Assembly: GCF_000337215.1 (NCBI RefSeq)
Contig: NZ_AOHZ01000041.1
Location: forward strand, 205,843 to 269,842
DNA length: 64,000 bases
Origin: Natronolimnohabitans innermongolicus JCM 12255
Lineage (GTDB): Archaea; Halobacteriota; Halobacteria; Halobacteriales; Natrialbaceae
Direction of reading: 5' to 3'
Position numbers and translations under genes: made by a program. Within the stretch, counting starts at the first letter, position 1. The number at the start of each line of letters is the position of its first letter. Shown piece by piece: positions 31,469-34,474 of this stretch. The notes beneath the pieces were generated by a model that searched no databases, was not told the origin of the DNA, and worked only from the letters and a program-made list of their open reading frames with translations.

Positions 31469-31789
31469 TTAGGTGCCGACACCGAGGACGAACAGGTCCT
31501 CGAAGTTAGTGTTCGTTTGCTCGACCGTTGTGTTCTGCGTATTCGTGGTGTCCTGCGTTACGGAGCTCCCGGTGTTGGCCTCGGCATCGTCACCGACGGC
31601 TACCGCGAAGCTCCCGTCGCTCGAGGACGTTGCTTCTTGCGTGACGGTTTGGCTCTGGCTCACGCCGGCAGTGTTCGACTGCTCGTCACCGTTGTCGGCC
31701 ACGCCAGCGGCGGCCGTTCCGGCGAACCCCATGAACATGAGGCTACCGACCAGCGCAACTGTCAACAGCATCGAGAACGCTCGATTCAT
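31469..31789 (-). CDS. Small secreted Q/N/T-rich protein, paralogue 3 of a tandem trio
   Basis: A 106-residue protein with a Sec-type signal peptide (MNRAFSMLLTVALVGSLMFM, Ala-rich cleavage region TAAAG). The mature part is low in aromatic residues and rich in Q, N, T, S, A and D, with spaced Q/N positions (QSNTAGVSQSQTVTQ, NTGSSVTQDTTNTQNTTVEQ), and ends NTNFEDLFVLGVGT. It is a paralogue of the two genes upstream (31793, 32134); the signal peptides and the central NTGxSVxQ motif are shared. It starts 3 bp after the stop of the second paralogue, so the three form one operon. Function unknown; the spacing resembles curlin-like amyloid repeats. No metal or catalytic motif. Confidence 0.82.
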   Translation of the reverse strand: MNRAFSMLLTVALVGSLMFMGFAGTAAAGVADNGDEQSNTAGVSQSQTVTQEATSSSDGSFAVAVGDDAEANTGSSVTQDTTNTQNTTVEQTNTNFEDLFVLGVGT

Positions 31790-31792
31790 CGC

Positions 31793-32125
31793 TTAGATCC
31801 CTCCGAAGTCGAGGAACAGCGAGTCTTCGACGTTCTCGTTAGTTTGGGTGACTTCTCCGGTCTGTTCGTTCGTGGCGTTCTGGGTCACCGAGTTGCCGGT
31901 GTTAGCGACGGGACCATCGTCGTTGTCGTTATCGTTGTCGTCGAAATCGAGCGCTATCGCGAAGCTATCGTCGCTCGACGCTTCGGCGACTTGAGTGGTT
32001 GACTGATCCTGATCGAGTTCGGCGTGGTTCGACTGATCGCTCGCTGCTGCTGTTCCGGCAAACCCCATAAACACGAGGCTACCGACCAATGCGACGGTCA
32101 ACAGTACTGAGAGTGTACGATTCAT
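31793..32125 (-). CDS. Small secreted Q/N/D-rich protein, paralogue 2 of a tandem trio
   Basis: A 110-residue paralogue: signal peptide MNRTLSVLLTVALVGSLVFM, then QSNHAELDQDQSTTQ, an acidic insert of D/N (DFDDNDNDNDDG) not present in the other two, the shared NTGNSVTQNATNEQ motif, and the end NENVEDSLFLDFGGI. It lies between paralogues 1 and 3, with gaps of 8 and 3 bp, on the minus strand. The acidic insert could bind Ca2+ or just be haloadaptive. The secreted, Q/N-patterned sequence fits a fibre or adhesin subunit, but this is inference. Confidence 0.82.
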   Translation of the reverse strand: MNRTLSVLLTVALVGSLVFMGFAGTAAASDQSNHAELDQDQSTTQVAEASSDDSFAIALDFDDNDNDNDDGPVANTGNSVTQNATNEQTGEVTQTNENVEDSLFLDFGGI

Positions 32126-32133
32126 CGTATCAC

Positions 32134-32451
32134 CTAGATGCCGAGGTCCAGGAAGATGGAGTCCGCGATGTTGGTGTTATCCTGGTCAACAGTCGCGTCC
32201 TGGGTGTTCTCGCTGGTTTGTTCGACCGAATTACCAGTGTTAGCAGTGGCATCGTCGCCAAACGCTAGCGCGACGCTGCCGTCACTGGAAGCGGAGGCGC
32301 CCTGTTCAACCTTCTGTGTCTGGTCAACTATCGCGGTGTTCGACTGTCCGTCGTCTTTGTGGTCCGCTGCAGCTGCTGTTCCGGCAAACCCCATAAACAT
32401 GAGGCTGCCGACCATTGCAATCGTCAGTAGCATCGAGAGTGCACGGTTCAT
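32134..32451 (-). CDS. Small secreted Q/N/D-rich protein, paralogue 1 (first gene) of a tandem trio
   Basis: A 105-residue paralogue with signal peptide MNRALSMLLTIAMVGSLMFM and mature sequence QSNTAIVDQTQKVEQ, DGSVALAFGDDATANTGNSV, then EQTSENTQDATVDQDNTN and the end IADSIFLDLGI. The alternation of small residues with Q/N every few positions matches the repeats of the 505-residue protein encoded divergently at 32957. ATG 32451 is used because it gives the same signal peptide as its paralogues; the open frame extends upstream without support. A long leader of perhaps 170 bases is possible if the AT-rich element near 32651 is the promoter. Confidence 0.82.
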   Translation of the reverse strand: MNRALSMLLTIAMVGSLMFMGFAGTAAAADHKDDGQSNTAIVDQTQKVEQGASASSDGSVALAFGDDATANTGNSVEQTSENTQDATVDQDNTNIADSIFLDLGI

Positions 32452-32956
32452 GGTTTGATATTCGCGTGTGGGCACCCACGAACGCCACGGACGACCCACA
32501 CTGTGTCGTCGCCCCGCCAGTAGCTCATCATCTCCGCGGCGTCTTGCCCGGTCGTTCCTGTCACTGGTTGCCCATTTCAACCCATGAATCCGTTTCATAC
32601 CGAATTACGGCACTAGGCTGGTTGAGGGACCCCCTATCAGCACTAGCCAGATTATTTATTGAGGTATAACGGAAAACTATCCGAGAGAGAGGACCTTATC
32701 TTGTTCTATCCAGTTGTTGTTTTGGCAACAAAACAATATCTCAAACAGGCCAGCCGGTCGACGCACTCGGGCGAGGCTTTCAAGCCTCCCTGGGCATGGT
32801 AGTAGGTGATTTCTCTCCCGAAGTGGCTGCATTCCGCTGAGTAGCCGCTTTCATACTTCATTCAACCTGTTGATAACAAAGGTGATAATCGAGATAGAGT
32901 CGTTCGCGTTGAACCGTTCAACAACAAACACAGTCAGCACACGAAATCAGAGATAC
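32452..32956. promoter_or_regulatory. 505-bp divergent control region of the Q/N-repeat locus
   Basis: The region separates the trio (minus) from the repeat protein (plus). It is AT-rich in the centre, with a TATA-like ATAAATAAT read on the minus strand at about 32651-32661. It has an 8-bp inverted repeat, TTGTTTTG (32717-32724) and CAAAACAA (32729-32736), with a GCAA loop. A GC-rich patch with two hairpins follows (32773-32850). No open frame with coding character is seen. Regulation of both units from here is inferred. Confidence 0.6.
32773..32850 (+). ncRNA. Candidate structured RNA or leader with two hairpins
   Basis: Hairpin 1 pairs GAGGCTT (32773-32779) with AAGCCTC (32782-32788) across two bases. 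Hairpin 2 pairs AAGTGGCT (32821-32828) with AGCCGCTT (32843-32850), with one G-U pair. They lie in a GC-rich patch inside AT-rich DNA, 107 bp before the repeat protein. A small RNA, a 5' leader element or the scar of an inserted repeat are all possible. Confidence 0.3.
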
Positions 32957-34474
32957 ATGACAGACACAGCCAGCAGACGATCACGCTATACGACACTCTT
33001 AGTGGCCTGTATCGTTTCCATATCAATGCTCGCCGGCGCGCCAGCGGCGATGGCCGGCGGCGCCGACGACGTCCAGGCAGACTCAGTCCACGCGCTCGAG
33101 AACGGCGAGGACCTCTACCTGGCGTTCGGTGCCGACCTCGAGGACCAGTCACTCGATGAATTCATCGAGGCCCACGCACACGGTGACATCGAGCAAGAGA
33201 GCAACGCCGAAGTCGTCCAACACCAGGACGTCGATCAGGTCAACATCAACGAGCAAGGGGATGCGGTCTCGATCTCGATCGATGGCGGTGAAGCGACCGC
33301 TGTCCAGGAGTCGAACCAGCTCAACGCCAACGATCAGACCGGAACGGTCTCCGCAGAAAACGAAGTCGCGACCGCCTACGAGACGCAGTTCGAGGACGTC
33401 GGTAACGTCTACCTCATCGTCGGCAACGGCGACAGCCAGCAGTACGACGGCTGGGGCGTCACCGACGAGAAAGGCGACAAAGAGACGGTGACGCAGTCGG
33501 CCGAAGCCGTCGTGACGCAGAGTCAGGACGTCGCACAGGCGAACGTCAACGAACAGAGCACGGCCCTCGCGATCGCGAACAACGGCAGCGAGGCGACGGC
33601 CATCCAGCAAACCGACCAGTACAACGAGAACCGCCAGGAAGGTGCCGCCGAGTCGACCAACGTCTACGCCGGCGGCGGCGACTACGTCGAACAGAGCGCG
33701 AGCGCCTTCCTCGGACAGGAGCAGGTCGTCGAACAGACGAACGTCAACGAACAGGGTGCAGCGGTCGCCATCGCCGTCGGCGAGGACTCGGTCGCAACGG
33801 CGATTCAGGTCACCGACCAGACGAACGTCAACGAGCAACTCGGCGCCGCCGAAGCCGCGAACGTCTACGCCGGCATGCCCGGCATGAACGTCGCAACCGC
33901 GGGCGACGACGTCGAGAGCAGCACCGTCGAGACGCAGGTGCCGAGCGACGACAAGAAAGACGACAAGGACGAGGGGCAGACGGCGACCTCGAGCGTCGAC
34001 CAGGAGCAGTCCGTCGAACAGCTCAACGTCAACCTGCAAAACAGCGCGGTCGCACTCGCCGACAACGGCAGCGAGGCCAGCGCGGTCCAGCTGGCCCACC
34101 AGCACAACTACAACGCCCAGATCGGCTCCGCTGCCGCGCTCAACGTCTACGCAGGACCGAGCCTCGACTTCGACAGCGAGGCCATGACGTCGAGTACGAC
34201 CGTCACTATCGGCGGCGACGACCTCGAGGACGCACCGGGCGTCTCCTACGACTACGACACGAACGCCGAGCAGACCAGCGACGTGACCCAGGATGCGACG
34301 GCCGCACTCGAGCAGTCGCAGTTCGTGACCCAGAACAACGTCAACGAACAGCACTCCGCGATCGCCATCGCCGAAGACGGCGGCGACGCGAGCGCGACGC
34401 AGGTCTCCATGCAGGAGAACGAGAACGTCCAGATCAGCGCCGTCGCGGCGACGAACGTCTGGATCGATGCGTAA
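32957..34474 (+). CDS. Secreted protein with five curlin-like Q/N repeats
   Basis: A 505-residue protein with a Sec signal peptide (hydrophobic core 12-30, cleavage near AMAGG). The mature part has five copies of a ~55-residue unit at about 86-141, 186-239, 251-306, 346-400 and 449-505. Each reads Q-x-Q-x-V-x-Q-x-N-V-N-x-Q, then an A-rich strand (xALAIAxxG), G-x-E-A-S/T-A-x-Q, Q-x-N-x-N-x-Q and mostly N-V-Y-A-G. The regular Q/N ladders with small residues between them match the strand-turn-strand logic of CsgA/CsgB curlin repeats. The linkers are acidic (DDKKDDKDEG). No membrane anchor or sorting signal is seen, so it is released or polymerises outside. ATG 32957 starts the signal peptide; the longer frame is rejected. 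It is divergent from the small paralogue trio, which carries similar motifs. Confidence 0.88.
   Translation: MTDTASRRSRYTTLLVACIVSISMLAGAPAAMAGGADDVQADSVHALENGEDLYLAFGADLEDQSLDEFIEAHAHGDIEQESNAEVVQHQDVDQVNINEQGDAVSISIDGGEATAVQESNQLNANDQTGTVSAENEVATAYETQFEDVGNVYLIVGNGDSQQYDGWGVTDEKGDKETVTQSAEAVVTQSQDVAQANVNEQSTALAIANNGSEATAIQQTDQYNENRQEGAAESTNVYAGGGDYVEQSASAFLGQEQVVEQTNVNEQGAAVAIAVGEDSVATAIQVTDQTNVNEQLGAAEAANVYAGMPGMNVATAGDDVESSTVETQVPSDDKKDDKDEGQTATSSVDQEQSVEQLNVNLQNSAVALADNGSEASAVQLAHQHNYNAQIGSAAALNVYAGPSLDFDSEAMTSSTTVTIGGDDLEDAPGVSYDYDTNAEQTSDVTQDATAALEQSQFVTQNNVNEQHSAIAIAEDGGDASATQVSMQENENVQISAVAATNVWIDA

Follow-up and report, generated by a model that had tools for sequence, protein, structure and literature searches.

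We analysed a 64,000-nucleotide stretch of the Natronolimnohabitans innermongolicus JCM 12255 genome (family Natrialbaceae; contig NZ_AOHZ01000041.1, positions 205,843 to 269,842, here called the window), which carries a four-gene locus for secreted proteins rich in glutamine and asparagine (Q/N): one large repeat protein, BIG, and three small ones, sm1, sm2 and sm3 (the smalls; Table 1). The BIG/small locus is a conserved, hitherto undescribed pair of divergent secreted-protein genes in haloarchaea. A previous sequence-only reading had placed here a 505-residue secreted protein with five repeat units, divergent from a three-gene small operon, and had proposed a curlin-like extracellular fibre; its positions for the four open reading frames (ORFs), the secreted protein, the five units and the divergent layout are all borne out. 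The small operon (31469-32451, minus strand) is divergent from BIG (32957-34474, plus strand), and sm1-sm2-sm3 is operon-like because the gaps are just 8 bp (sm1/sm2) and 3 bp (sm2/sm3). An alternative in-frame TTG start at 32870, upstream of the ATG at 32957, gives a 534-aa ORF; the ATG was chosen as the BIG start since the homologue N-termini (M....RSR.TT) align there. BIG and the smalls are acidic and cysteine-free, the mature BIG having 88 D/E against 6 K/R residues.

The repeat unit is 57-59 residues long across BIG and the smalls, the five BIG units having 58-59. We detected an excess of Q/N pairs in BIG at a lag of 2 residues (35 observed, 16.6 expected) and at a lag of 27 (21 observed, 9.3 expected), counts that none of 5000 shuffles reached, and the same test gave no excess at lags 26 or 28. 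Each unit therefore consists of two 27-residue rungs. Q or N fills unit positions 9, 11, 15, 17, 38, 42, 44, 46 and 48 in 98-100% of 362 units from 73 homologues; the regular Q/N positions proposed earlier are conserved, and their spacing is beyond chance. Across 17 BIGs there are 119 invariant columns, 45% of them Q or N with spacing of every 2 and every 27 residues, and these columns are enriched in Q (29% vs 10%) and N (16% vs 8%). Repeats with a conserved strand register, which is one criterion for functional amyloids, are found in the BIG and small units.

The smalls were previously described as having similar Q/N spacing; each is in fact a single copy of the BIG unit. When the five BIG units are aligned with one stretch per small (A3), Q1, Q9, Q11, Q15, A34, Q42, N46, Q48 and N56 are identical in 8/8 sequences, all of these columns being Q or N save the one A. 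The profile built from the mature smalls alone matched all 73 BIG homologues at 48-168 bits, with no match to shuffled or reversed copies, and in genome scans it picked out every BIG unit separately. The nine identical columns and the detection of all BIG homologues by the small-protein profile demonstrate that the spacing reflects a shared repeat, most simply explained, from the sequences, by common descent. The EDLYLAFG segment pointed out near the BIG start is part of a conserved motif, EDLYL.FGADL. The common ends proposed for the smalls (DSIFLDLG, DSLFLDFGG, EDLFVLGVG) are lineage-specific, being confined to these three paralogues; in other species the small proteins end in FEFDVF, DDFFGGIFS, AFNVLG and others. 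We rejected the ends as a docking motif, as they are not conserved in homologues.

Table 1. Features of the BIG/small locus (window coordinates)
Feature	Position	Strand	Basis or remark
BIG, secreted protein of 505 aa with five Q/N repeat units	32957..34474	+	ATG start; homologues in 99/125 family genomes
BIG signal peptide, Sec-like, residues 1-33, ...GAPAAMA/GG	32957..33055	+	sequence inspection, homologue alignment
BIG N-terminal non-repeat motif EDLYL.FGADL....LDEFIEAHA, residues 46-76	33092..33184	+	invariant Y54 L55 F57 G58 D60 L61
BIG repeat unit 1, residues 80-138	33194..33370	+	unit alignment
Conserved BIG insert between units 1 and 2, FEDVGNVYLIVGNG...DGWGV..EKGD	33371..33493	+	invariant E146 V148 G149 V151 G156 G165 W166 G173
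BIG repeat unit 2, residues 180-238	33494..33670	+	unit alignment
BIG repeat unit 3, residues 246-304	33692..33868	+	unit alignment
BIG repeat unit 4, residues 341-399	33977..34153	+	unit alignment
BIG repeat unit 5, residues 445-503	34289..34465	+	unit alignment
Conserved BIG leader, ~95 nt, core GATAACAAAG at 32872-32881	32862..32956	+	core with 0-1 mismatch
Small-operon leader; 5' arm with GGGCAAC (~32550-32575), 3' arm (32468-32497) before ATG	32452..32601	-	hairpin in homologues
sm1, leading gene of the operon, secreted single-unit paralogue (105 aa)	32134..32451	-	ORF call, unit alignment
sm2, secreted single-unit paralogue, 110 aa	31793..32125	-	ORF call, unit alignment
sm3, secreted single-unit paralogue, 106 aa	31469..31789	-	ORF call, unit alignment

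BIG is present in 99 of the 125 Natrialbaceae genomes and in 26 of the 29 genera. Clear matches outside the host family were confined to two other families (293 genomes of the order), in Haladaptatus-like and Halomicrococcus-like relatives, and both of these genera are also named in plasmid records with BIG; a sparser phylum-wide genome sample gave no BIG match beyond the host family. The divergent arrangement, whose conservation had been proposed as a check, recurs at most loci, and one to four single-unit genes adjoin most BIGs. The usual neighbours of the locus are larC-like and RadB/CBS-domain genes, and other BIG loci adjoin sugar-metabolism or sugar-biosynthesis genes, such as a DegT-type aminotransferase and an acetyltransferase (named by sequence inspection). 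Exactly five units were counted in 71 of 73 distinct BIG homologues, and the best cross-species match of a given unit is the unit of the same rank in 94.7% of comparisons. This constant count and the unit-specific identity across species indicate that the five-unit architecture is old and fixed.

Searches of NCBIfam and PDB sequences with the locus proteins, including the 17-member BIG alignment (A1) and A3, returned chance-level matches only. The BIG family was not described in the literature searched, where the related reports concern a dye-positive Haloferax biofilm matrix and amyloid-like methanogen sheaths. A phage origin of the locus was rejected, with no match among 50,697 phage records. 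In Natronorubrum bangense the locus occurs both on the chromosome and on a plasmid (L032, L033) with identical gene coordinates and matches, apparently a recent duplication.

Sec-like signal peptides are found on BIG and the smalls, in the window proteins and in homologues; the RR pair in the BIG signal peptide is not conserved. BIG homologues from several genera additionally carry a PGF-CTERM-type C-terminal tail: the PGF-CTERM profile (PF18204) matched only one of the 17 members of A1, and the BIG homologue of locus L055 scored above the curated cut-off. The signal peptides and these tails support a surface or extracellular place for the BIG family, in agreement with the extracellular location proposed earlier. 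Compared with known PGF-CTERM haloarchaeal surface proteins, the likeness is the tripartite anchoring tail on several BIG homologues and on two neighbours, whereas PF18204 was not detected in the window BIG, and most Natrialbaceae BIGs are also without the tail. The window BIG is thus, judging from its sequence, probably released from the cell. The two neighbours, nearby proteins with a short Q/N tail (L084, L086), scored above the PGF-CTERM cut-off.

Several further proteins were also noted. Near the smalls, L084 9524-10729 (minus), L086 10060-11328 (minus) and L061 2475-3533 (plus) encode proteins with a PGF-CTERM-type tail and a small-like Q/N tail segment, possibly serving as a membrane tether. 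L035 788-1498, L039 1279-1956 and L044 188-808, likewise near smalls, encode secreted proteins with an extra domain of ~90 residues (..DSITFYNDDG..ATWTGDEF..), whether or not they also have the Q/N unit. A BIG paralogue class, 40% identical, has a twin-arginine translocation (Tat)-type RRGYLK signal, a Lys-rich tail and no adjacent divergent smalls (L068 6119-7651, L072, L077, L085).

Each of the two divergent transcripts has a conserved leader, a feature that the earlier reading had not pointed out and that is consistent with dedicated regulation. Of 73 distinct BIG genes, 60 have the core of the BIG leader, GATAACAAAG, intact or with one mismatch. A longer pattern, present in 28 genomes, was never seen twice in one genome and never away from BIG (the reversed-pattern control gave none); RNAalifold gave no conserved structure for this leader. 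In the small-operon leader the GGGCAACGCG... arm pairs with the ...GTGNTGCCC arm directly upstream of the ATG. Varying bulge lengths in the 3' arm defeated column-wise covariation, and the pairing was therefore tested by an alignment-free swap of arms among diverged loci. Native pairs were more stable than swapped ones (mean -32.0 vs -25.9 kcal/mol), and 35 of 41 outdid the median swapped pair, which indicates compensatory change among loci that are not independent. The whole-leader fold is clearly better than shuffles in some relatives (z about -5) but not in the window copy (z -0.28). Other examples of the hairpin leader are L025 817-985 and L078 8337-8469. One small-leader pattern gave 30 matches in 24 family genomes; every match of known position lies near BIG, and the reversed control gave none. 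An Rfam search on the leaders gave nothing above chance. As a guess, the leader elements might serve regulation or protect a highly expressed transcript.

The AlphaFold2 (AF2) model of BIG, built from the 17-homologue alignment, has strands in all five units, where the predicted local distance difference test score (pLDDT) is mostly 60-80. In a second look with VIA, residues 87-496 of the model aligned best with the SufB/SufD beta-helix (Z 8.4, root-mean-square deviation (rmsd) 2.7, 150 residues) and more weakly with Pontibacter CsgA and FapC. The model suggests, weakly, that BIG could form one continuous stacked beta-solenoid with the inserts looped out. We lean towards reading the BIG/small locus as a haloarchaeal extracellular structural system, in which a solenoid BIG and edge-adding smalls would build a fibre or a surface/matrix layer, a reading that the sequences and the model make moderately probable. 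In its favour are the conserved divergent arrangement, the unit common to BIG and the smalls, the Q/N enrichment of the invariant columns, the 27-residue periodicity, the five units with their own identity, the signal peptides and PGF-CTERM tails, the predicted strands and the VIA alignments, the sugar-biosynthesis genes next to some BIG loci and the dye-positive matrix of Haloferax biofilms. Once exported via Sec, BIG would fold extracellularly as a flattened parallel beta-solenoid, with inward ladders of Q/N side chains and the inserts between units looped out. By sequence, a rung comprises ~27 residues of alternating Q/N/A/V ladders, with two rungs per unit and about ten in BIG. The smalls, as free two-rung solenoid pieces, may join edge-to-edge with BIG or with one another as caps, nucleators (seeds) or extenders, the product being either a fibre or a surface/matrix layer held together by cross-links, and in some lineages the PGF-CTERM tail would tie BIG to the cell. 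We infer that this assembly could be amyloid in nature and have a role in biofilms, with the smalls potentially acting as nucleator or cap.

Several results weigh against this reading. The overall confidence of the BIG model is low (mean pLDDT 53.5; predicted TM-score 0.43), and AF2 gave no fold for the small protein (pLDDT 50). Foldseek with the BIG model found nothing significant among the PDB and viral models (E >= 2). The Z of ~8 for SufB/SufD lies in the range that VIA rates middling. The stacked strands that the earlier reading asked of structure prediction are present in the low-confidence BIG model. A constant count of five units is expected of a discrete folded protein and does not require polymerisation. 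Adjacent smalls are missing at 6 of 13 PGF-CTERM-bearing BIGs, 5 of 33 other BIGs and 5 of 5 Tat-signal paralogues, the association with PGF-CTERM being only suggestive (Fisher p = 0.05, not adjusted for kinship).

These points bear on the main alternative, to which we give a smaller though appreciable chance: BIG may be a discrete beta-solenoid that does not polymerise and serves as a surface adhesin or in the matrix, with the smalls as soluble binding partners or as caps that end growth instead of starting it. The conserved individual identity of the five units, the conserved inserts, the PGF-CTERM-anchored BIGs that sometimes do without smalls, and a best structural likeness to closed beta-helices rather than amyloids would all suit such a protein. 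However, most BIGs keep one to four divergent single-unit neighbours, an adjacency most easily explained by co-assembly, and free-edged solenoid ends usually stack unless capped. An ordered fold might also be absent altogether, the proteins being secreted, low-complexity, disordered Q/N-rich chains, for example a glycosylated slime component, as the low AF2 confidence, the acidic composition and the small protein predicted to be unstructured would allow; the 119 invariant columns in 17 homologues, the exact 27-residue register, the unit-specific conservation and the invariant Trp/Gly inserts make this improbable.

The proposed likeness to curlin was borne out in part. Like curli, the locus has secreted repeats in which Q/N recur at set, alternating positions of the strands, one larger subunit with smaller paralogues, and candidate stacked beta strands. 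The BIG unit, however, has 57-59 residues as two 27-residue rungs, whereas curli repeats have ~22 residues, and BIG has five units with individual identity, whereas the repeat number of CsgA homologues is highly variable, up to 22 (PMC3521004). The profile hidden Markov model (HMM) comparison with the curlin repeat that had been suggested gave no match: PF07012 was absent from the window proteins at E <= 10 and from this locus in all family genomes scanned, in a search that detected the E. coli curlin as control. An HMM from E. coli CsgA and CsgB and a haloarchaeal curlin-repeat protein missed BIG, and the unit HMM missed those proteins. QxGxxN, the core of the minimal motif X6-Q-X-G-X2-N-X10, is absent from BIG, sm1, sm2 and sm3; it occurs at least once per protein, anywhere, in 55 of 73 BIG homologues. 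CsgG (PF03783) was not found in the host genome, which weighs little on function because archaea have no outer membrane. The comparison with the amyloid subunits themselves, using the low-confidence AF2 model in VIA, gave Z 5.6 and rmsd 8.5 for Pontibacter CsgA (8c50), and Z 3.0 for FapC.

The Q/N ladder and its register stand, whereas membership of the curlin family does not, given the absent PF07012 and custom-HMM matches, the missing CsgG and the fixed repeat number; curlin homology was rejected. Acquisition by haloarchaea of a true curli system with CsgA/CsgB homologues is very unlikely on these negatives and the lack of QxGxxN in the window proteins, in spite of the in-register ladders, the large protein with smaller paralogues and the secretion. 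The BIG locus may work like curli, by analogy. We tentatively consider, at a clearly lower probability than that of a structural system in general, a new curli-analogous archaeal fibre of independent origin, in which a ten-rung BIG would be seeded or capped by two-rung smalls, with archaeosortase-anchored variants and dedicated leaders.

Curlin-type repeats do occur in this organism family, at an unrelated locus: L088 1300-2037 (minus) encodes a secreted haloarchaeal protein with ~11 such repeats and PF07012 above cut-off, found in 4 of 125 family genomes. This protein and its relatives resemble BIG in secretion, host family and Q/N repeats of the NDADVDQ..A.V.Q type, and differ in their ~19-residue repeats, the PF07012 match and the locus.

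Functional amyloid is known in Archaea from the sheath proteins SH and MspA of Methanospirillum and Methanothrix (PMC10593813, PMC6242892). The sheath proteins are likewise archaeal, extracellular and beta-rich, with edge-to-edge strand stacking (PMC10593813, PMC6242892). SH, compared with BIG by description, differs in its size of 40 kDa and in having, besides a cap domain, an amyloid-like domain of two sheets that forms cell-wide rings, and the descriptions of SH and MspA give no Q/N ladder repeat and no single-unit partners. Haloferax biofilms stain with Congo red and thioflavin-T, showing that a haloarchaeon can have an amyloid-like matrix, for which the protein is not established and there is only a candidate gene (PMC4180959).

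If the fibre reading is true, the locus would provide a possible genetic basis for an amyloid-like matrix in these haloarchaea. If BIG forms fibres, Archaea would have evolved secreted Q/N-ladder fibres on their own, using a subunit of fixed length and separate single-unit partners, a useful comparison for curli nucleation. Even without polymerisation, BIG is an unannotated surface protein family of most sampled Natrialbaceae, and it offers a specific conserved gene set for knock-out, expression and imaging in the haloarchaeal matrix question.

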